Source: Sulfurimonas sp. (lineage in GTDB: Bacteria; Campylobacterota; Campylobacteria; Campylobacterales; Sulfurimonadaceae). From it: DNA of 64,000 bases. Position numbers and translations under genes: made by a program. The stretch is taken from contig NZ_JAQTLY010000010.1 in NCBI RefSeq assembly GCF_028714655.1, forward strand, positions 1 to 64,000. The letters run 5' to 3'. The notes under the pieces were generated by a model, which had not been told where the DNA came from, did no database searches, and worked only from the letters and a program-made list of their open reading frames with translations. Each line of letters starts with the position of its first letter. Within the stretch, counting starts at the first letter, position 1. Shown here piece after piece: positions 29,828-61,564 of this stretch.

Positions 29828-31693
29828 TTGAAAATATCCCTCGTTTTAATACTTTTAACAGCTCTACTATTTGGTGAAGAAAAAAATCTCAATGAACTGC
29901 TATCCGAGTACAGGGAAGCGGGAGAGCTATACAATGAGACAAAAGAGGAAAATTCAGGGAATGTTATAGTATATTCCCGCTCAGATCTTGACAGAATGCA
30001 GGCTTATACGCTCAATGATATTTTAAAAACCATAAGACTCTTTACACTTAAAAATACAAAAATCGGGATGAATACACTTGTTAAAAGCCCCTACTCTGAA
30101 GCGACAACCTCTTCTGTTCGAGTATTTATAAATTCGCATGAGCTAAAATCCATAACTGCCGGAACTGCAATGGCTCAGTACGGAAAAATGGGACTAAATT
30201 TTATAGACCATATCGAAGTGTACCAAGCTTCAAACTCTATCTCCTTTGGCGGCGAACCCGGCAATATGACCATAAGAATGTATACAAAAGACCCCTCAAG
30301 AGAGGATGCTACAATTATACAAACTTCCATAAACTCAGAAGACGGCGGCGGTAGAGCTCAGCTTATAGAGGCAAAAAAGCTTGATGAGTACTCATATCTG
30401 GCAAATATAGATGTCGGGAAAAGTAACTATGATAAGCATAACGCTGCAAACGGTGCCAAGCTATCAAGAGACGGCAAAAGAATTCAAGCCTATGTCAGTC
30501 TGCAAAAAGAGGATAACTTTTTAGTAGAGCTCGGTGCCGGAGGAGAGAATAGTGATATTTTTGCCGGTTTCGGTCCATCGGTTAGAGGCGGTTCTTTTGA
30601 CTCAAAAAGTATGTATGTAAACTTTACAAAATATTTTGATAATGACCTTAAGCTTATTTTGGGAAGTGATTATGAAGAAATCAAGGTAAGAAACTTGGAC
30701 AGTATGGGCATAACTCTTCAAGATAGAACAAAGGCTTATGACCTATCTATAGAAAACGGCGCACAAACAAACAACGCCATTTTGGAAAAAAAAGCTATCT
30801 ACGGAGACAACTATATTTTAGTCGGTGCAGAAACTAGGTTTAAAAAGTTTTTTCTTAATGAGCTAAAGAGCAACGGTGTAGATAAACCCGTAATAGTCGG
30901 TCCAAGGGACCTTGATATTTATATGCTCTATATAGAAGATGAGTATAAGTTTAATAAAAATCATTCTGCAACACTCGGTGCAAAAGTTGATTACTACAAA
31001 AACTATATGAGCGAATCAGCCACCCAAAAGCTGATTCGTTTTGCTTATAATGGGCAACTTAGAGATGATTTTTCACTTAAATTTTTTACTCAAAAAAATT
31101 ACACCTACCCTATATTTGCACAAACAACTTTCTCACCGCTCTACTACCCAAATCCAAACCTAAAAGCTACTACCGGTAATCTAGTAAAGATTGAGGGTGA
31201 GTACAAAAAAGATGCTCTAACCCTTACTCTTGGAGTGGGTGGGTCTAAAAGCAAAAACGGTATCGCATTCGACAGGGTCAGCAACAGATATATAAATAAT
31301 CCTGACACTGCCGATTTTAGACAACTCTTTATAAACACAAAATATAAATTTAATGAAGACAACAAACTATTTGTGGAATACTTTATTGCCGATAAAGACA
31401 AAACTCATCTTGGTTCTGACAACGGTGCGTTAGTGCAGCTATTTAACAAAGTCGGTAGATTTGACTTCTATAATGAGCTTGTATATAGATCTGCATACAT
31501 AGATATGATGGGGTACGAAATAGACGCGGGATACGACTATACGGCAGGTGCTATATACCATTACAGCAAAAATCTTGACTTAAAAGTAAAAGGTGAAAAC
31601 ATCTTTGACAGAGCAAGCCAGTCAAATATAAACGGTGTATTTACCTCAGCGATAGAGAGAAGAGCCATTTTCACGCTGGAGTATACTTTTTAG
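29828..31693 (+). CDS. TonB-dependent outer-membrane receptor
   Basis: 621 aa, TTG start, signal peptide about 1-16 (MKISLVLILLTALLFG). Plug domain about 45-160 (NVIVYSRSDLDRMQAYTLND ... SVRVFINSHEL); beta-barrel to the C-terminal Phe (AIFTLEYTF). No clear TonB box was seen. Ligand unknown. Its stop abuts the next gene, and it is followed by a periplasmic protein and a GGDEF-EAL protein, so the operon could couple outer-membrane binding to cyclic-di-GMP. Confidence 0.8.
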   Translation: MKISLVLILLTALLFGEEKNLNELLSEYREAGELYNETKEENSGNVIVYSRSDLDRMQAYTLNDILKTIRLFTLKNTKIGMNTLVKSPYSEATTSSVRVFINSHELKSITAGTAMAQYGKMGLNFIDHIEVYQASNSISFGGEPGNMTIRMYTKDPSREDATIIQTSINSEDGGGRAQLIEAKKLDEYSYLANIDVGKSNYDKHNAANGAKLSRDGKRIQAYVSLQKEDNFLVELGAGGENSDIFAGFGPSVRGGSFDSKSMYVNFTKYFDNDLKLILGSDYEEIKVRNLDSMGITLQDRTKAYDLSIENGAQTNNAILEKKAIYGDNYILVGAETRFKKFFLNELKSNGVDKPVIVGPRDLDIYMLYIEDEYKFNKNHSATLGAKVDYYKNYMSESATQKLIRFAYNGQLRDDFSLKFFTQKNYTYPIFAQTTFSPLYYPNPNLKATTGNLVKIEGEYKKDALTLTLGVGGSKSKNGIAFDRVSNRYINNPDTADFRQLFINTKYKFNEDNKLFVEYFIADKDKTHLGSDNGALVQLFNKVGRFDFYNELVYRSAYIDMMGYEIDAGYDYTAGAIYHYSKNLDLKVKGENIFDRASQSNINGVFTSAIERRAIFTLEYTF

Positions 31694-32125
31694 ATGAAAG
31701 CAATAATCGGGGTATTTTTTTTAATCACTTTAGCTTTTGCAGCTGATAATACGCATGCCATAAAAGCGGAGATACTAGAAAAAATATTTGCAAATATCTC
31801 TATGAAAAAAGAGCTGATTATCTGGTCTGACGATAAAGAACTGATTGGAGAGTTTGATAAAAAAGGAACTTTTACAACAACGACTCATTGCAAAGATGCC
31901 ACACTCCTTATCCTGGAAAATAAAAAAAATATAGAGAAAGTATGCCATGAGAAAGCTGTTTTTGTACTTGACTATGCCCTCTTAAAAGAGATTCCGCAAA
32001 GCTTCGGTGCCATTTTTTGGAAAAAAGGCAGACCCAATATTGTTATTTTAGCACCCAGAGCAAAAGCGCAATCAATAATAGTCTCAGATAAATTGGATGA
32101 TTATGTTGAGGATAAGATATGGTAA
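31694..32125 (+). CDS. Small periplasmic protein of unknown function
   Basis: 143 aa with a signal peptide (MKAIIGVFFLITLAFA, cut near AFA-AD). Mature part is about 127 aa with two Cys (HCKDA and KVCHEK) that could pair. Begins one base after the receptor stop and overlaps the GGDEF-EAL start by 7 nt. The position is like YfiR-type periplasmic regulators of diguanylate cyclases, but I do not see enough sequence similarity to call it one. Confidence 0.6.
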   Translation: MKAIIGVFFLITLAFAADNTHAIKAEILEKIFANISMKKELIIWSDDKELIGEFDKKGTFTTTTHCKDATLLILENKKNIEKVCHEKAVFVLDYALLKEIPQSFGAIFWKKGRPNIVILAPRAKAQSIIVSDKLDDYVEDKIW

Positions 32126-34020
32126 AGAGCAAAGATTTTTTTATCTTTTTTCTTCTTCTGGTTTTAGGTATATTTTTCATCTACATTTACAGCAATATCA
32201 AAACAACAAAAGAGGATGTTTACAATCGCATCGAAACAGATCAGATAGAGCAGATCTCAACCATACTAAATGCAGTGCAGAAAGATTTTACGACATCTCT
32301 AAAGATTAAAAATTCCGACGAACTGCTAAATGCGTTTATGGAAGAAGGGAACGCAAAAAAGTATGAAGAGATAATCTCTTTGATTATGACGGCAAATATA
32401 AAATATGCTTATATACTCTATAAAGACGAGAAAAATAAATTTAGATTTATCTTAGATGCTTCAAAAACGGACAAAGCGAGTTTTTACCAAAAGTTTGATG
32501 TTAGTAGAAACGAGTATTTTGATGTATATAGTACTAAAAAACCCGTGATTTTAAAACAAAAGGATATAGAAAATCTCTATATAACTCTACTTCATCCCAT
32601 AATAATAAACAATGAAGTAGCCGCTCTTTTTAGTGTCGATATCACAACAAAAATCCAAGATATAATTCTGCAATCAATTAAACCCTTGGAGAATTTTTTT
32701 ATCATTTTGATAATCGTCGTAGCTCTCTTTATGGCTATGATAGCGATGCAGCTATTTCACTATTTTGCTACAAGAAAAAGAGTATTTACGGATCCGCTTA
32801 CAAACACATTTAACAGAAACTATCTCGAAGAGCTGCAAAATGTCATAAATCTAAATAATTACAGTATTGCTATGTTAGACCTTGATAAGTTTAAATCCAT
32901 AAACGACATTTACGGGCATCAAGCAGGTGACTTTATACTTGTTCAAGCTAGTAAAATATTTAAAACTTCCATCAGAGCAAGCGACATACTTGTCAGATAC
33001 GGCGGAGAGGAGTTTTTACTGCTCATCCATAACAGAAACGGCTCTGCACTGCAAGTGTGCGAAAGGATTAAGGATAGCATCTCCTCAGGAAACTATTTTT
33101 ATGACGGCAATGAGATTAAGTTAAGCGTCTCCATCGGTCTGCATAAACATCCGGCATTGGAAAAAAATCTACATGAGGCTATTAAAATAGCAGATAAAAT
33201 GCTCTACAATGCAAAGAAAAACGGAAGAAACAGGATAGAGATTTATGATGAAAAATCACTCTCTGAAAAAAATGACAGCTCCAAAGATATAAGTTTTGTT
33301 AAAGAGGCTCTTGATGAAGATAGAGTTACCTGCTACTATCAGCCGATATATGATTATAAAAAATGTGAGATTTACAAATATGAGGCACTGGTTAGAATAC
33401 TAGCAACCGATGGCAGAGTCGTTACCCCTTTTGAGTTTTTGCCTCAGATAAAAGGGACAAATATGCACTATAAACTCACTCAGAGAATTTTACAAATTGT
33501 TTTTGACAAAATAAAAGAGAGCAAAAAAAATATCAGCGTAAATATAAATTTTTCAGACCTTACAAATCCAGACATTCAAGAGACAATTATCAAGCATCTC
33601 AAAAGCAATCCTGAGTTGGCACATAAAATTACTTTTGAGATACTTGAGAGTGATGAGATAGATGATGTAGAGCTCTTTAAAGCCAAAACAAATCTGATTC
33701 ACTCCCTAGGAGCAAAAGTCTCTATAGACGACTTTGGAAGCGGCTACTCAAACTTCAAGACTATCATCGACATAGAGGCAAATTACCTTAAAATAGACGG
33801 CTCATTAATCAAAAATATAGATAAAAATATCAAAGATTACAAGGTTGCAAAGAGCATCATACACTTTGCTTCGCAGAGCAATATGCAAACAGTCGCAGAG
33901 TTTGTCCACTCAAAAAATGTTTTTGACAAGTTGGTTGAGTTAAATGTCGACTTTATGCAAGGCTACTATATCTCCCAGCCAAAAGCTGCTTTGATTGAGA
34001 AAGAAGAGCTTTTTAGATAA
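32119..34020 (+). CDS. Membrane GGDEF-EAL cyclic-di-GMP enzyme
   Basis: 633 aa. TM1 about 7-26, periplasmic sensor region about 27-190, TM2 about 191-215, GGDEF about 225-375 with GGEEF and an RASD I-site five residues ahead, EAL about 390-630. EAL residues look intact: EALVRI, NINFSDL, EILES, DDFGSGYS, KIDGS, QGYY. So both synthesis and breakdown of c-di-GMP are possible. Third gene of the receptor operon; its sensor domain could read the periplasmic protein encoded just before. Confidence 0.88.
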   Translation: MVKSKDFFIFFLLLVLGIFFIYIYSNIKTTKEDVYNRIETDQIEQISTILNAVQKDFTTSLKIKNSDELLNAFMEEGNAKKYEEIISLIMTANIKYAYILYKDEKNKFRFILDASKTDKASFYQKFDVSRNEYFDVYSTKKPVILKQKDIENLYITLLHPIIINNEVAALFSVDITTKIQDIILQSIKPLENFFIILIIVVALFMAMIAMQLFHYFATRKRVFTDPLTNTFNRNYLEELQNVINLNNYSIAMLDLDKFKSINDIYGHQAGDFILVQASKIFKTSIRASDILVRYGGEEFLLLIHNRNGSALQVCERIKDSISSGNYFYDGNEIKLSVSIGLHKHPALEKNLHEAIKIADKMLYNAKKNGRNRIEIYDEKSLSEKNDSSKDISFVKEALDEDRVTCYYQPIYDYKKCEIYKYEALVRILATDGRVVTPFEFLPQIKGTNMHYKLTQRILQIVFDKIKESKKNISVNINFSDLTNPDIQETIIKHLKSNPELAHKITFEILESDEIDDVELFKAKTNLIHSLGAKVSIDDFGSGYSNFKTIIDIEANYLKIDGSLIKNIDKNIKDYKVAKSIIHFASQSNMQTVAEFVHSKNVFDKLVELNVDFMQGYYISQPKAALIEKEELFR

Positions 34021-35526
34021 CTACTTCAAGAGCTTTTGTAAGAGCTTGTCTACCTCTTTGTTTATCTTCTCTTGAACTTCTTTTCCTGCTTCCGTTTTCA
34101 TAAACTCTTCCAAATTTATCGATACTCTCGGGGCGTCTATATCTCCATTTAGAGCTGCACTTAAGACATTTTTTTTCGCCTGCAAAGTTATGTCGCTGTC
34201 TATCTGCTTGGTTTTTGTGTTGATTTTAGCCTCTTTTATCTTTATAGAAGCCTCTGCCGAGCGGAGGTTAAGCGAGGCTAAGATATTGTCTTTATATACT
34301 TTTGCATTTATATCGCCGTTAAAAAATTCTTTATACATATCAAATTTTGCAAACTCTTTTACGCCATCAAAAATTTGATTTTTTTCAAACCTTGCATTGG
34401 CAACTTGTCCGTTAAGAGCAGCTCCGTTTTGGGTAAAATCTTTTGCGTTGCCGATCTCTACATTCATAAAAAGCAGTCCATCCATATAGTGCGGTTGTTT
34501 TAACATAAAGAGCAGTTTTTCTATCTTTAAAGTTTCGATTTTGGCACGAAGCGATGCAAGTTCAAAATCTTTTAAAATCGCCTCAAATACCGTGTCTGAT
34601 GAAGCCAAATCGCTTATACCGCTTACCGTGAGCCTCTCTTTGTCTCCTTTTGCCTCTCCCTCAAGCTTCAATGAACCTCTGATATCTGTACCGGTAATAG
34701 GTTTTAAAGCTTCTAGTTCTTGGATATTTAGCGAATATTTTATATCGGCTTTAAGAGGCTCCGGAACTACCCTGCCCGAAGTGGCAATCTTAAATAGATT
34801 TGAAGCAAAATTATAATTATAATCTACATTATCGCCTTTTAGTTTTGCATCAAGATTCATAGAAAAAGAGGTTTTCGGAATAGTTACATTAAAATCGCTT
34901 TTCATATATTTGGGATCTATTATTCCGTTTTTGCTCTTTAAAACTATATCTCCGTCCATAGTATGAGGATTTATATTTTTAAAATTTATTTCCAAATCCA
35001 TGTCTGCCGTCGCGTATGGATTTTTTGCAACCGTGTAAAGCAAAGATGAGAGTTTTGCATCTTTCATTTTTGCGACGATAGAAGTCGGATTCAGATCGGT
35101 CAGCTCAACATAATAAGCAGTATGACTATCCCCGATATCGCTTTTGCCGTCTACTTTCATAAATGCCATGTTGCCTTTTACGGTTCCGTTTGTATATAGC
35201 GTTCCTCTAAGCGCAGTTAGCGTAAACGGTTCCAAACTCTCCAATTTTTGAAAACCTGCTTCATAGGAGAGTTCAAATGCCCGCGAAAAGAGAGAGTAAT
35301 CCCCTTCTATCTTTATGGTGTTATTGCTATTTAACTCTAAAATTATCTCAAAATTTCTTGAGGTGAGTGAAAATTTGGTGAGTTTGCTATCTAATTTTGT
35401 CTGCTCTCTTATTTTGCTCTCTGCTATCGGCTTTATCAAACCATTGCCAAACGGCGTAAAAAGAACTCCATATACGGTTGCTGTAAATATTAGTAAAATT
35501 CCGCCTATCCAAGCTAAATACTTCAC
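34021..35526 (-). CDS. AsmA-like / DUF748-type envelope protein
   Basis: About 501 aa from a GTG at 35526 preceded by GAGGAG. One N-terminal membrane anchor (about 2-24, KYLAWIGGILLIFTATVYG), then a long beta-rich region with repeated SLKLEGEAKGDKE-like and DITLQAKKNVL-like strands, ending in a charged helix. This is the layout of AsmA-family bridge-like lipid transport proteins spanning the periplasm. The family assignment is by layout only. Convergent with the GGDEF-EAL gene with no gap. Confidence 0.5.
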   Translation of the reverse strand: MKYLAWIGGILLIFTATVYGVLFTPFGNGLIKPIAESKIREQTKLDSKLTKFSLTSRNFEIILELNSNNTIKIEGDYSLFSRAFELSYEAGFQKLESLEPFTLTALRGTLYTNGTVKGNMAFMKVDGKSDIGDSHTAYYVELTDLNPTSIVAKMKDAKLSSLLYTVAKNPYATADMDLEINFKNINPHTMDGDIVLKSKNGIIDPKYMKSDFNVTIPKTSFSMNLDAKLKGDNVDYNYNFASNLFKIATSGRVVPEPLKADIKYSLNIQELEALKPITGTDIRGSLKLEGEAKGDKERLTVSGISDLASSDTVFEAILKDFELASLRAKIETLKIEKLLFMLKQPHYMDGLLFMNVEIGNAKDFTQNGAALNGQVANARFEKNQIFDGVKEFAKFDMYKEFFNGDINAKVYKDNILASLNLRSAEASIKIKEAKINTKTKQIDSDITLQAKKNVLSAALNGDIDAPRVSINLEEFMKTEAGKEVQEKINKEVDKLLQKLLK

Positions 35527-39638: not shown

Positions 39639-41747
39639 ATGAGCAGACGCTTCAATTTGCATATAAGAGATGAAATTCTGTTTTGGTTTATCGTAGTTTC
39701 TGTTATTCCAATTGTTACTCTCTTTAGCATAAATTATTTCTTTAACAATAACCAATTTAAATCCCAAGCAAAAGAGCATCTTGAGCTTATCTTAAATGAA
39801 AAAATATCAAAAATAGAACATCAGATAGAGGATATAGAAAAAAGTGCAAAACTTATCGCCTCTTTTCCGTGTATGGTTAACGGTTTTTTAAAACATAAAG
39901 ATTATTTTGAGCAAAACAATCATCTAGTTAGCGATGACGAAAAACTTAACAAAATACTAAACAACTTTATAGATAAAGATAAATTTTATGATATCTTTTT
40001 TATAGATATGGACGGAAATATAGTCTATTCACTAAAAAAAGAGTCGGACTTGGGTACAAATCTTCTAACAGGCATCTATAAAAATACAAACTTGGCTTCT
40101 GTATACAAAGATGCAAAAATATTTTTAAACACTAAAATAAGCAGTTTTGAGTATTATCAGCCTTCTGACGCCCACGCGGCTTTTGTTGCCCATCCGATTT
40201 ACAATGAAGATAAAATTATCGGGGTTATTGCTATCCAATTGGCAAAAGACAGACTCTCTAAAATCTTTGATGACCAAAAAGGGTTGGGTGAGAGCGGTGA
40301 ATTTTTTGCATCTACCATAAATGCCCAAAATAAATTAATCTCAACTACTCCTTTAAAATATATAAAAGACTCGATAGAAAACGAATTTCAATTTAACGAA
40401 ACCAAAGAATTAGCATCTGCAAAAGTTGCAAAAGGAGGATACGGAAGCGGCTATGGTCTTGACTATAGAGGAGTTGAAGTTATCACTGCATGGGGGTATA
40501 TTCCCGCGCTTAATTGGGGAGTCATAGCAAAAATAGACCTTGATGAAGTTTTAAAACCTATACACAAAACAGAATTATTCTCAATTGCGATTATCCTTGT
40601 TGTCTTAGTTTTTATTGCTATTGCAATCATTATGGCAACGAAACATATAGTTTTTCCGATAGATGCTCTTATAAAAAAAGTAAAAGAGTTCTCTTTGGAA
40701 AATCAAGAGAAAAACATAGTAGATGTTTATGTGGATAACGAGATAGGAATATTGGCACGCAACTTCAATAAAATGGCTAAAAAACTTAAAAATTCGCAAA
40801 ATATCATTAAAAAGCATGCTACCGGTCTTGAAGACAAAGTAAGAGAGAGAACCAAAGAGCTTGAAGAAGCAAAAAATGAACTCAGCAAAACAAACGCTTC
40901 TATGAAAAGATATCTTGATATCGTGGATAGATATATTATCTCCTCTTCAACGGATCTAAAAGGAGTTATTACGGAGGTAAGCAGTGCATTTTGTCATTTT
41001 ACCGGTTACTCAGAGGATGAACTGATAGGTAAAAAACATAATATAATGAGGCATCCTAACACTCCAAAAGAACTCTATAAAGAGATGTGGGGAGCCTTGA
41101 AGAGAGATGAAACTTGGAGGGGCGAGATAAGAAATACTACAAAAGAGGGTAAATCCTATTGGACACACGCAACTATCTCTCCCATATACAATTCTGCAGG
41201 GGAGAAAATCGGCTATACCTCTTTAAGATACGATATAACCGGTCAAAAGATTACCGAAGAGCTTTCTGTGACGGATCAATTAACCCAATTGTACAATAGA
41301 CTAAAACTTAAGTCTGTTTTCAATAACGAGATAGAGAGAGCTTTAAGATACAGACAAATCTTTAGCGTCATTATGTTGGACATCGACCATTTCAAATCAG
41401 TAAATGACACTTACGGACACGGCATAGGCGATAAAACACTTATCGATATTGCAAAAATATTAAAAGAGAACTCAAGGGTAACGGACATAGTCGGTCGCTG
41501 GGGCGGAGAAGAGTTTATGATTGTGCTTCCGCAAACAGATATAAAAGCAGCTGCCGAACATGCAGAGGTACTAAGAGAAAAAATAGAACAGCACCGATTT
41601 GAAGCCGTAGGAAGAAAAACATCAAGTTTCGGCGTAAGCAGCTTTATCGAGGGCGATACATATGAAACAATAGTAAAAAGAGCGGATGATGCTCTTTATG
41701 AGGCAAAAAACAGCGGAAGAAACAGAGTCTGCATAAGAGAAGATTAA
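39639..41747 (+). CDS. dCache-HAMP-PAS-GGDEF diguanylate cyclase
   Basis: 702 aa. TM1 about 13-30, periplasmic double-Cache sensor about 31-308 (FYDIFFIDMDGNIVYSLKKE, GVEVITAWGYIPALNWGVIAKID), TM2 about 311-334, HAMP about 335-390, coiled coil, PAS about 430-535, GGDEF about 540-700 with GGEEF and an RVTD I-site. The PAS block (HNIMRHPNTPKELYKEMW) closely resembles the PAS of the CetB-like protein at 47187 (HNIVRHPDMPKAAFKNLW), suggesting a similar, perhaps flavin-binding, redox sensor. Senses a small external ligand and makes c-di-GMP. Confidence 0.9.
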   Translation: MSRRFNLHIRDEILFWFIVVSVIPIVTLFSINYFFNNNQFKSQAKEHLELILNEKISKIEHQIEDIEKSAKLIASFPCMVNGFLKHKDYFEQNNHLVSDDEKLNKILNNFIDKDKFYDIFFIDMDGNIVYSLKKESDLGTNLLTGIYKNTNLASVYKDAKIFLNTKISSFEYYQPSDAHAAFVAHPIYNEDKIIGVIAIQLAKDRLSKIFDDQKGLGESGEFFASTINAQNKLISTTPLKYIKDSIENEFQFNETKELASAKVAKGGYGSGYGLDYRGVEVITAWGYIPALNWGVIAKIDLDEVLKPIHKTELFSIAIILVVLVFIAIAIIMATKHIVFPIDALIKKVKEFSLENQEKNIVDVYVDNEIGILARNFNKMAKKLKNSQNIIKKHATGLEDKVRERTKELEEAKNELSKTNASMKRYLDIVDRYIISSSTDLKGVITEVSSAFCHFTGYSEDELIGKKHNIMRHPNTPKELYKEMWGALKRDETWRGEIRNTTKEGKSYWTHATISPIYNSAGEKIGYTSLRYDITGQKITEELSVTDQLTQLYNRLKLKSVFNNEIERALRYRQIFSVIMLDIDHFKSVNDTYGHGIGDKTLIDIAKILKENSRVTDIVGRWGGEEFMIVLPQTDIKAAAEHAEVLREKIEQHRFEAVGRKTSSFGVSSFIEGDTYETIVKRADDALYEAKNSGRNRVCIRED

Positions 41748-43072
41748 AAACTTGCCTTAACGCAGTTTCTGCCTGAGGCTTTTGCTTCATAGAGAGCTTT
41801 GTCGGCTCTCTCGATGATGCTTCTTAAGTCATCGTCTTTTACTACTCTTGTAACTCCGAAGCTTGCGGTTACCCTGCCTATCTTATCTATATTCAATTCC
41901 TCTATATGGACTCTTAGCTTTTCGGCTAAAAAGAGTGCATTGTCTATATCGGTAGCAGGAAGAAGTATAACAAACTCTTCTCCTCCCCATCTGCATACAA
42001 TATCTATGTTTCTTAGGGTCTTTTGCAGCTCTTGAGAAATTTTTACAAGAACCTCATCTCCGACATTATGCCCGTACGCATCGTTTATCTTTTTAAAATA
42101 GTCTATATCTATTATGATCAACGACATACTATTGTCTCTCTCTGCCATAGTTTTATACGACGATAGATAGAGTTCCAAAAATTTATTGCGGTTATAAAGA
42201 CCCGTAAGAGGGTCTGTCGAAGCCATCGCCTCATACTTTTTACTCTTGTTTAAAAGAGAAGCGTTGATTTGACAAAGCTCGTCATGATGCTCTTTCATCA
42301 GCATTGCCCATCTTGAATACGAGAGGGAAATAAGCTCTTTTTGCGTAATAATCCCCGACATATCTCCGTTATCGTCAACAACTACGACTCTTTTATAATG
42401 CTTCTCTTTTAAAAATGCCAGAGCCTCTTTTATAGAACAATTTTTACTTATCGTATCGACCGGAGATGACATATAGTTGCTAACGGGCAACTCCAAGTCT
42501 TCATTATGTTTGATTATCTTTACGACATCTTTTGTAGTAAAAATCCCTATTGGCTTGAAGTTTTCTACAATCATTACGCTCTCATAACGATTTTTTATCA
42601 TCTCTTCAAGCAAATCAAGCGTTTTCATCTCTTTATTTACCCATTTGGCTCTTCTGCTAAGCTTTAAAAAATCCTGCAGACAAAAATTATCCATCAGCGT
42701 CTCAGGATCTATACTGCTTGTGACATCCGTATGCGAAACTAGCCCGTGAAGCGAACCGTCACTATTAGTTACGCAAATATACTCTATTTCGCAATTTAGA
42801 TAATCAACTATCTCTAAAATATTTTTATCTTTATGTGCTACCGAAACGGTACTAAGTCTTAAACTCTTAAGTGAATTATTCAAATCTACATTTTGAATTT
42901 TAATATTTAAGATGTCGTTTACGGTTAAGATGCGAAAAACATTTTCATCTATAACTATAATATTTCTATGTACGCTCTCAAACATCATTTTTATAGCATC
43001 TGAAATTGTCTTGTTTATATCTATCGAGACGACGGAAGTTGTCGCTATATTGCCTATTGTCGGGAATTTCAT
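41744..43072 (-). CDS. CBS-domain GGDEF diguanylate cyclase
   Basis: 442 aa, soluble. Two CBS pairs (about 1-125 and 140-262; e.g. PVSNYMSSPVDTISKNCSIKEA, VDDNGDMSGIITQKEL), short helix, GGDEF about 275-440 with GGEEF and an RNID I-site. CBS pairs usually bind adenine nucleotides, so this enzyme may tie c-di-GMP to energy state. Its stop overlaps the stop of the convergent Cache-GGDEF gene by 4 bp. Confidence 0.9.
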   Translation of the reverse strand: MKFPTIGNIATTSVVSIDINKTISDAIKMMFESVHRNIIVIDENVFRILTVNDILNIKIQNVDLNNSLKSLRLSTVSVAHKDKNILEIVDYLNCEIEYICVTNSDGSLHGLVSHTDVTSSIDPETLMDNFCLQDFLKLSRRAKWVNKEMKTLDLLEEMIKNRYESVMIVENFKPIGIFTTKDVVKIIKHNEDLELPVSNYMSSPVDTISKNCSIKEALAFLKEKHYKRVVVVDDNGDMSGIITQKELISLSYSRWAMLMKEHHDELCQINASLLNKSKKYEAMASTDPLTGLYNRNKFLELYLSSYKTMAERDNSMSLIIIDIDYFKKINDAYGHNVGDEVLVKISQELQKTLRNIDIVCRWGGEEFVILLPATDIDNALFLAEKLRVHIEELNIDKIGRVTASFGVTRVVKDDDLRSIIERADKALYEAKASGRNCVKASF

Positions 43073-59446: not shown

Positions 59447-61564
59447 CTAGACTGATTTACCCTCGCCTTTAAAATCATAGACAAACTCTCTAAATTTATC
59501 TATTTTTAGAGGTTTGCTAAAGTAATACCCCTGTATCTGATTGCAGCTTAAAAATTTCAAAGTATCAACATGCCCTTTTGTTTCTGAGCCCTCGGCAATA
59601 ACATCTTTTCCCAAAGATCTAGTCATTGCGATAATTGCCGAAACGATTGAGCGGTCATCCTCGTTTTTATCAATATCAAGCACAAAACTGCGGTCTATTT
59701 TTATAGTTTTAGCAGGCAGTTTTTTAAGATAACTTAGCGATGAGTACCCTGTTCCAAAATCATCTATGGAGAGTTTAAAGCCTTTTGAATGCAACAAATT
59801 TAAAATAATAAGCGCTTTGTCGACATTTTTCATAATATGACTCTCGGTAATCTCTAGTTCTACATAACTATTATCAAGCCCTATATCATCTACGATACTG
59901 CAAATATCCTCCACAAAAGAGAGATCATTTAATTGTTTGCTTGAAACATTTATGGATACCGTAAGTTTGTTACCCTCGTTATGAAGCATCTTCGTATCGC
60001 TGATTGCCTGTTTTGCTACCCATAATCCGATTTCTAAAATTTGACCCGTCTCTTCGGATATACCTATAAATCTGTCAGGTCGAATAAGACCTATTTCCGA
60101 ATGATTCCAACGAATTAACGCTTCCATCCCATAGACGCTTTTCGTCTCTAAATTTACCTTTGGCTGATACTCTAAAAATAGTTCGTTTTTATTTATAGCG
60201 TTACGCAAATCATTCTCTATAAGCATTCTTTCGGTTATTTTTTCATTCATTGATTGCGTATAAAACTGATAACCGTTTTTCCCGCTCTCTTTTACATGAT
60301 ACATTGCCGTATCTGCCGCTCTCATAAGTTCTTCGTAACTCTGTGCATCATCAGGATAGATACTAATACCCATACTCGCACCCGTAAAAAATTCTCTATC
60401 CTCTATCATAACCGGATTTTTAAATCTATCAATTATCTTATCGGCGACTGAAGCGATATCTACAATCGACTTTACATCGTCCAATATTACGGTAAACTCA
60501 TCACCGCCAAGCCGTGCAAAAGTATCTTGTTCGCGAAGAAGAGATTTTATTGATTTTGCTACTTCGATTAAAAATTTATCACCCGTTAAATGCCCGAATG
60601 TATCATTTATATTTTTAAAATTATCCATATCGATAAAAAGCAGAGCCATTTTTTTAGAGTCTCGTTTTAGTGCAGGTATTTTACTAATAACGCGTTCTTG
60701 AAACAGCACCCTGTTTGGAAGGTTTGTTAGCGAATCAAAATAGGCGAGATTGTGAATCAGGCTCTCTTTTTGTTTCTTTTCGCTTATGTCGTTTACTATT
60801 GATATGTAGTTTGTCAATATGCCGTTTTTATTATGCAGCGCGATAATATTTAGCTCTGCCGTATATAGCTCTCCATTTTTTCTGCGATCAATTACCTCTC
60901 CGTTCCATTGACCTTTTTTATTTATATCGCTCCATAGCTTTTGATAAAAAGCGTTATCGTGCCAACCTGAACTAAATGCATTCGGGGTTTTTCCTTTTAT
61001 CTCTTCAAAAGCATATCCCGATATTTTGCTAAATGCACTATTTATCGTGATTATTTTTTGATTTGAGTCGGTAATAAGAACGCCGTCGCTCATTTTTTCA
61101 AAGACGGCAGATGCCAAAATAAGCTCGTTTTCTGCATTTTTTCGTCTTGTTATATCATGAACCGTGCCGATAGATCTTATCGGTTTTCCGCTAGCGTCAA
61201 ATTCATGCTCACATCTCTCTTCAACAAATCCGATTTCACCGTTTTTACGAATAATGCGATGTTCGACAAAATATCCATGCTTCTCTTTTAGCGATGTGCT
61301 ATAAGCTTCATTTACCATATATGCATCATCAGGATGAACATATTTTAAAAATGCTTCATAAGTCGCATCGAACTCTTGAGGTTCTAAACCGAAAATACGA
61401 TAAACCTCATCAGACCAATAAAGAGTGTTATTGGCTAAATCAAGTTCCCAATGACCGATATTTGCCAAAGCTTGTGCCTGCATAAGACCCGAATAAAGCC
61501 TTTTACGGTAAAGTTCTTGCTCTGATAAATCAACAGTTTCAGCGCCGATAAACGGTAATTGCAT
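59447..61564 (-). CDS. PAS-PAS-GGDEF-EAL cyclic-di-GMP protein
   Basis: 705 aa, no membrane helix. PAS about 25-140 (WELDLANNTLYWSDEVYRIF), PAS about 150-265, GGDEF about 275-430 with intact GGDEF and an REQD I-site, EAL about 445-695 with EALIRW, NVSSKQL, ITES, DDFGTGYSS, KIDRSF and EGSET. Both activities seem possible; many such proteins act mainly as phosphodiesterases. Convergent with the MetF-like gene, gap 10 bp. Confidence 0.92.
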   Translation of the reverse strand: MQLPFIGAETVDLSEQELYRKRLYSGLMQAQALANIGHWELDLANNTLYWSDEVYRIFGLEPQEFDATYEAFLKYVHPDDAYMVNEAYSTSLKEKHGYFVEHRIIRKNGEIGFVEERCEHEFDASGKPIRSIGTVHDITRRKNAENELILASAVFEKMSDGVLITDSNQKIITINSAFSKISGYAFEEIKGKTPNAFSSGWHDNAFYQKLWSDINKKGQWNGEVIDRRKNGELYTAELNIIALHNKNGILTNYISIVNDISEKKQKESLIHNLAYFDSLTNLPNRVLFQERVISKIPALKRDSKKMALLFIDMDNFKNINDTFGHLTGDKFLIEVAKSIKSLLREQDTFARLGGDEFTVILDDVKSIVDIASVADKIIDRFKNPVMIEDREFFTGASMGISIYPDDAQSYEELMRAADTAMYHVKESGKNGYQFYTQSMNEKITERMLIENDLRNAINKNELFLEYQPKVNLETKSVYGMEALIRWNHSEIGLIRPDRFIGISEETGQILEIGLWVAKQAISDTKMLHNEGNKLTVSINVSSKQLNDLSFVEDICSIVDDIGLDNSYVELEITESHIMKNVDKALIILNLLHSKGFKLSIDDFGTGYSSLSYLKKLPAKTIKIDRSFVLDIDKNEDDRSIVSAIIAMTRSLGKDVIAEGSETKGHVDTLKFLSCNQIQGYYFSKPLKIDKFREFVYDFKGEGKSV

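Follow-up and report, generated by a model that had tools for sequence, protein, structure and literature searches.

Signalling from the outside of the cell across the outer membrane to cyclic di-GMP (c-di-GMP) is mostly unknown, and YfiBNR is one worked example, for which the signal is itself uncertain. In these operons (YfiBNR/HmsCDE in Pseudomonas aeruginosa and Yersinia pestis, YfiR-DgcN-YfiB in Escherichia coli) an outer-membrane part, a small periplasmic protein and a transmembrane diguanylate cyclase (DGC) are encoded together. YfiB is an OmpA/Pal-like lipoprotein with a peptidoglycan-binding OmpA-like domain, and YfiR carries two cysteine pairs (PMC4655355). The distant YfiN/YfiR systems described by Malone et al. 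are mostly without YfiB, and their output domains are often swapped, for GGDEF-EAL, HPT or kinases (PMC3375315); TonB is unmentioned in the main text of that paper. Here we analyse a stretch of 64,000 nucleotides from Sulfurimonas sp. (assembly GCF_028714655.1, contig NZ_JAQTLY010000010.1, positions 1 to 64,000; hereafter the window), in which a comparable operon encodes a TonB-type receptor (REC), a small exported protein (SMALL) and a transmembrane GGDEF-EAL transducer. An earlier note, made from the sequence alone, had suggested that this trio forms a route from substrate uptake to c-di-GMP, similar in logic to YfiBNR. The module itself is now strongly supported by conservation in both directions, by one sensor kept under swapped outputs, by receivers beside the kinase versions (EAL-bearing in the five checked) and by similar trios with a YfiR/HmsC-like protein, whereas the uptake part of the proposal is not.

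Comparison with described systems

The window trio shares with YfiBNR a small exported protein beside a transmembrane transducer with a periplasmic domain, and its relatives, like the distant YfiBNR-like systems, have undergone output swaps. It differs in having a TonB-type receptor in place of YfiB (no OmpA-like domain was matched by Pfam in the trio proteins), in its gene order REC-SMALL-DGC, in a small protein that scores in no YfiR model, and in a transducer that is Cache-like and without a HAMP match. The FecA-type transducers (FecIRA) also join an inward-signalling receptor barrel to a periplasmic partner, but the Pfam scan showed no FecA-like STN domain in REC, and the output of FecIRA is a sigma factor and not c-di-GMP. 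WalK, which has the protein partners YycH and YycI, provides with its extracytoplasmic Cache/PAS domain the closest structural match of the sensor; WalK is however a Gram-positive kinase, acting where an outer membrane is absent, and its partners are unrelated. The Caulobacter Hmr pathway was checked as a possible equivalent and is different. Within the literature searched, no paper was found on a trio of YfiBNR-like kind that has a TonB-type receptor.

Conservation of the trio

The linkage of the three genes is far beyond chance. Among 121 genomes of the family, 39 contained a relative when a single SMALL sequence served as query (a contig scan with the single sequence gave four close relatives only), and a profile search extended these to 89 of 397 Campylobacterota genomes in 24 of 68 genera. 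The surroundings of 115 SMALL matches were fetched, giving 111 strong loci, the window included, to which the locus counts below refer. REC lies upstream of SMALL in 107 of them, a transducer sharing the periplasmic sensor lies downstream in 105, and the complete trio is present in 103. The genes are tightly packed: the REC-SMALL gap is at most 20 nt in 105/107 loci and the SMALL-transducer gap in 105/105, the latter mostly being overlaps of -4, -7, -13 or -28 nt (-4 in 42 loci, -7 in 15 and -1 in another 15). Within the order, 36 of 100 genomes have relatives of REC (1e-57 to 1e-249). In the reverse test, starting from REC, SMALL stands immediately downstream in 29 of 30 fetched loci. The earlier note had named rare co-occurrence in relatives as the result that would speak against its proposal, and the opposite is clearly found in both directions. 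Two incomplete loci, L075 and L184, lie near contig ends.

The distance matrices of the trios are correlated at r 0.87-0.91. Within five multi-trio genomes the true within-genome pairing gave the highest correlation found among the pairings drawn, a top value reached in 14-23 of 2000 shuffles, which is about the draw rate of the true pairing itself (1 in 96). The genes that recur beside the trios are housekeeping genes, which differ by lineage, and genes for further signalling proteins; no recurrent inner-membrane transporter gene was found there. No SMALL relatives were found on plasmids or viral contigs, so that there is no evidence of mobile spread. At locus L076, REC is broken across two frames and an in-frame stop interrupts SMALL, with the transducer still intact; it seems that the receptor is decaying there together with the adaptor.

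One sensor under swapped outputs

The membrane GGDEF-EAL enzyme with a periplasmic sensor, as first described for the window, was borne out: Pfam recognises GGDEF (E 1.4e-34) and EAL (E 4.7e-56), a Cache-like domain lies between the transmembrane (TM) helices, and both sets of catalytic motifs are present in the predicted protein (GGEEF, EAL, DDFGSG, LKIDG). An AlphaFold2 model of residues 1-222, built from five sequences, reached a mean confidence (pLDDT) of 81.5, with a long first helix, a Cache/PAS-like domain and a second TM helix. In structural comparison it came closest to WalK/YycG and KinD, in their extracytoplasmic domains (VIA-align Z 11 to 12.8), and one of the matches is a WalK-YycH model (9a5d), in which a protein partner accompanies the Cache domain. 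According to the model, the sensor is a Cache/PAS fold held between two TM helices.

This sensor is attached to several outputs. Most transducers keep an intact GGDEF motif: in 67 both GGDEF and EAL are intact and 15 have GGDEF only, while 5 have lost the GGDEF motif and keep EAL, and 11 are histidine kinases. The kinases share the sensor in 9 of the 11 cases, these being matched at 1e-40 to 1e-54 by a sensor profile made from GGDEF-type proteins only. In one clade (L143, L162, L164, L168 and L170) EAL is intact and the GGDEF motif is replaced by GGSEF, GGGEF, GGAEF or none, so the output, read from these motifs, is apparently that of a pure phosphodiesterase (PDE). On a tree of REC and SMALL, 12 changes are required to explain the output classes, a number below that for shuffled labels; the switch between GGDEF and GGDEF-EAL accounts for at least 9 forced changes, and the kinase and EAL-only types for one each. 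Since the sensor is retained under swapped outputs, the input side would talk to the sensor domain. Furthermore, 9 of the 11 kinase trios (L073, L077, L169, L172, L177, L178, L179, L180 and L183) have as a neighbour a receiver protein that includes a GGDEF/EAL-like part, and the five receivers scanned with Pfam all have Response_reg and EAL, two of them also GGDEF. The endpoint would thus again be c-di-GMP, and the kinase trios appear to be a two-step phosphorelay that returns to it.

The receptor

REC matches the Pfam TonB_dep_Rec_b-barrel family at 28.5 bits (cut-off 27) and Plug at 23.6 bits, slightly below the cut-off of 23.9, with 27 bits in the genome scan. The genome encodes TonB and, REC included, four receptors with a plug. 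Between the signal peptide and the plug, 103 receptors share the consensus LDxLLxEYxxxSdLSxxTKxEsaG, and by eye no TonB box is evident in any of these receptors; two conventional receptors of the same genome have, again by eye, TonB-box-like stretches ('ELKPLDITST' in L212 and 'VKLPEVSVEST' in L213). A FecA-type STN signalling domain was not found in REC by the Pfam scan, and only about 25 residues precede the plug. Because a conserved segment occupies the expected TonB-box position and no transporter recurs beside the trios, we favour, on sequence grounds, a sensor role for REC over uptake, and the starting point in substrate uptake that had been suggested for the route is not supported. We propose the pre-plug segment as a candidate contact site for SMALL. 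In three loci (L064, L071 and L077) the single SMALL gene is preceded by two receptor genes in tandem, which looks like a duplication of input specificity in progress.

The small exported protein

The N-terminus of SMALL resembles a signal peptide, and the protein contains exactly two cysteines, in agreement with the exported protein with two cysteines of the earlier note; exactly two are found in 73/111 SMALL proteins and none in 20/111. Conserved features across 39 relatives are, besides the N-terminus, 'C..A..iil', 'YxLL', 'GAxFWxKGRPNIV' and 'YxE'. By sequence the protein falls in no family of Pfam, NCBIfam, PHROGs or the PDB, weak Pfam matches to RnaseA and Ribosomal_L1 being taken as chance. 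At E up to 1, the YfiR/HmsC-like family PF13689 (DUF4154) matched neither SMALL nor any of its 39 relatives, and it had no match in the genome. By eye, the second half of SMALL is YfiR-like. In hhalign comparisons with YfiR/DUF4154 proteins from Campylobacterota it scored 17-25, against at most 16 for 60 column shuffles and reversed profiles, and HMMER cross-hits were scarcely above decoys. Whether SMALL is a divergent YfiR is about evenly balanced. We propose that it represents an adaptor family, not yet catalogued, which about a fifth of Campylobacterota genomes encode.

A different role for SMALL has to be weighed here, namely that it is a solute-binding protein that takes the compound imported by the receptor and presents it to the Cache domain, in the manner of LuxP and LuxQ, the carried ligand then being the signal itself. 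The YfiR fold does resemble one subdomain of the substrate-binding proteins of ABC transporters (PMC4655355), the Cache fold of the sensor is a usual binder of small molecules, and the GAxFWxKGRPNIV stretch, which is strongly conserved, could serve for binding. The mature protein, however, has only about 125 residues, which would give one subdomain and not the two-lobed form, and neither a recurrent transporter nor an evident TonB box accompanies the receptors; we consider this role unlikely.

A second class of trio

A second trio with the same gene order is present in the same genome (G000 C2:200056-204724, equivalent to L211:1057-5725) and encodes a receptor of 699 aa, an exported protein of 185 aa and a TM protein of 656 aa with a degenerate GGDEF and an EAL domain. 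The 185-aa protein has relatives in 22 of 249 genomes; most of them are flanked by a receptor on one side and by a DGC or kinase on the other, and 9 of 10 members of this family match PF13689, the copy in the window's own genome being without a match. The receptors of this second class (class B) have a comparable pre-plug segment, 'LL...ATxTKxN'. At another locus, L195, a canonical YfiR of the phylum, with a weak match to the P. aeruginosa YfiR structures, stands between part of a receptor and a GGDEF protein. Judged from these gene orders, the placing of a YfiR-type protein between receptor and DGC is real in Campylobacterota, which lends support to the proposed function of the window trio irrespective of any kinship between SMALL and YfiR. 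These receptor/YfiR-HmsC-like/DGC trios (classes A and B) resemble the window trio in architecture and position, and also exist in kinase versions, but their middle protein is about 180 aa long and recognised by PF13689, and their receptors and sensors belong to other families. We found no paper that describes them. Direct fusions of DUF4154 to GGDEF or to a histidine kinase were also seen in Campylobacterota (L199:1429-2973 and L200:1-2013), the one at L199 standing after part of a receptor gene.

A proposed trans-envelope relay

The account that we consider probable is that the trio is a YfiBNR-like tripartite signalling module across the envelope, in which a TonB-type receptor replaces YfiB. 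REC would bind an extracellular ligand, and its pre-plug segment would then alter its hold on SMALL. SMALL, when free or released, would bind the Cache-like domain of the GGDEF-EAL protein and so shift the balance between c-di-GMP synthesis and breakdown. This shuttling of SMALL between the receptor segment and the Cache domain is modelled on YfiBNR (PMC3375315, PMC4655355), and by analogy with YfiR we assume that SMALL is inhibitory. We infer the outer-membrane and periplasmic locations, the protein contacts and the existence of a ligand.

Several observations weigh against this account. The alignment of SMALL with same-phylum YfiR/DUF4154 members, while colinear, has an hhalign probability of only 1-25%, depending on the subset, and the structure model of SMALL, made from 4 sequences, is poor (pLDDT 52), its Foldseek matches being meaningless. 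Moreover, the kinase-type transducers of L077 and L135 have a different periplasmic domain, and at L166 and L174 the transducer is absent after SMALL, so the order is not absolute; at L174 a GGDEF-EAL transducer sits upstream of REC.

An uptake operon with its own regulator is a poorer explanation than the solute-binding role of SMALL, and we hold it to be quite improbable. REC would then import a nutrient that the Cache domain senses directly, with SMALL as an accessory of uptake, such as a chaperone or scavenger. REC does retain plug and barrel, and TonB is present in the genome; nevertheless, no inner-membrane transporter recurs, and the SMALL gene is linked both to REC and to the sensor, following the former in 29/30 loci and preceding the latter in 105/111 whatever the output. 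Co-transcription without functional coupling, through chance or local synteny, is hardly credible: 13 Sulfurimonas-type loci do have the trio inside one conserved neighbourhood with lepA, prs and dnaK, but in other families the neighbourhood changes while the trio is kept down to 21-30% identity, the outputs were swapped repeatedly, and the two-way linkage (29/30 and 103/111) refutes this explanation in the main.

Layout of the locus

The trio lies on the + strand of a Sulfurimonas-type genome of 2.19 Mb (Table 1). The back-to-back layout given in the earlier note stands as regards the three open reading frames and the 7-nt overlap, but not the first gap, which is 0 bp and not 1 bp, the ATG of SMALL directly following the TAG stop of REC. 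The overlap of SMALL and transducer likely brings translational coupling. Upstream, a comF-like gene stops 52 nt short of REC, and a convergent open reading frame, AsmA-like by eye, has its end at 34021. A scan of the sequence for promoters and terminators gave sites no more numerous than in shuffles. Elsewhere in the window, two GGDEF-domain genes lie convergent and close together (41268-42223), and another c-di-GMP gene lies at 60275-60745; the whole genome has 43 GGDEF matches.

Table 1. Features of the trio in the window
Feature	Position	Strand	Basis
REC, TonB-dependent-receptor-like outer-membrane protein, 621 aa, signal peptide, TTG start	29828..31693	+	Pfam and relatives
REC conserved pre-plug segment, residues 21-44, at expected TonB-box position	29888..29959	+	conservation in 103 receptors
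REC plug domain, residues 39-142	29942..30253	+	Pfam PF07715
SMALL, exported protein, 143 aa, proposed periplasmic adaptor	31694..32125	+	alignment of 39 relatives
7-nt overlap, SMALL stop and transducer start	32119..32125	+	sequence
DGC/PDE transducer, 633 aa: TM, periplasmic Cache-like domain, TM, GGDEF, EAL	32119..34020	+	Pfam, AlphaFold2
Periplasmic sensor, residues 27-190, extracytoplasmic Cache/PAS-like fold	32197..32688	+	structural matches, sensor profile
GGDEF domain, GGEEF motif and RxxD I-site intact	32785..33234	+	Pfam, motif check
EAL domain, EALVR and DDFGSG intact	33301..33981	+	Pfam, motif check

Implications

In the proposed module a c-di-GMP route would start from a receptor that is potentially ligand-specific, and the pre-plug segment, the adaptor and the Cache domain are predicted to touch. 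A bolder possibility, which we put forward tentatively, is that these TonB-type receptors have, as a class found throughout the phylum, given up TonB-driven import to become pure outer-membrane sensors, that the adaptor family coupling them to c-di-GMP had an origin separate from that of YfiR, and that YfiBNR-like logic thus evolved more than once. For the Campylobacterota, which include chemolithotrophs of vents and sediments as well as host-associated relatives, the trio is probably an undescribed relay that informs the cell interior of what the outer membrane meets.

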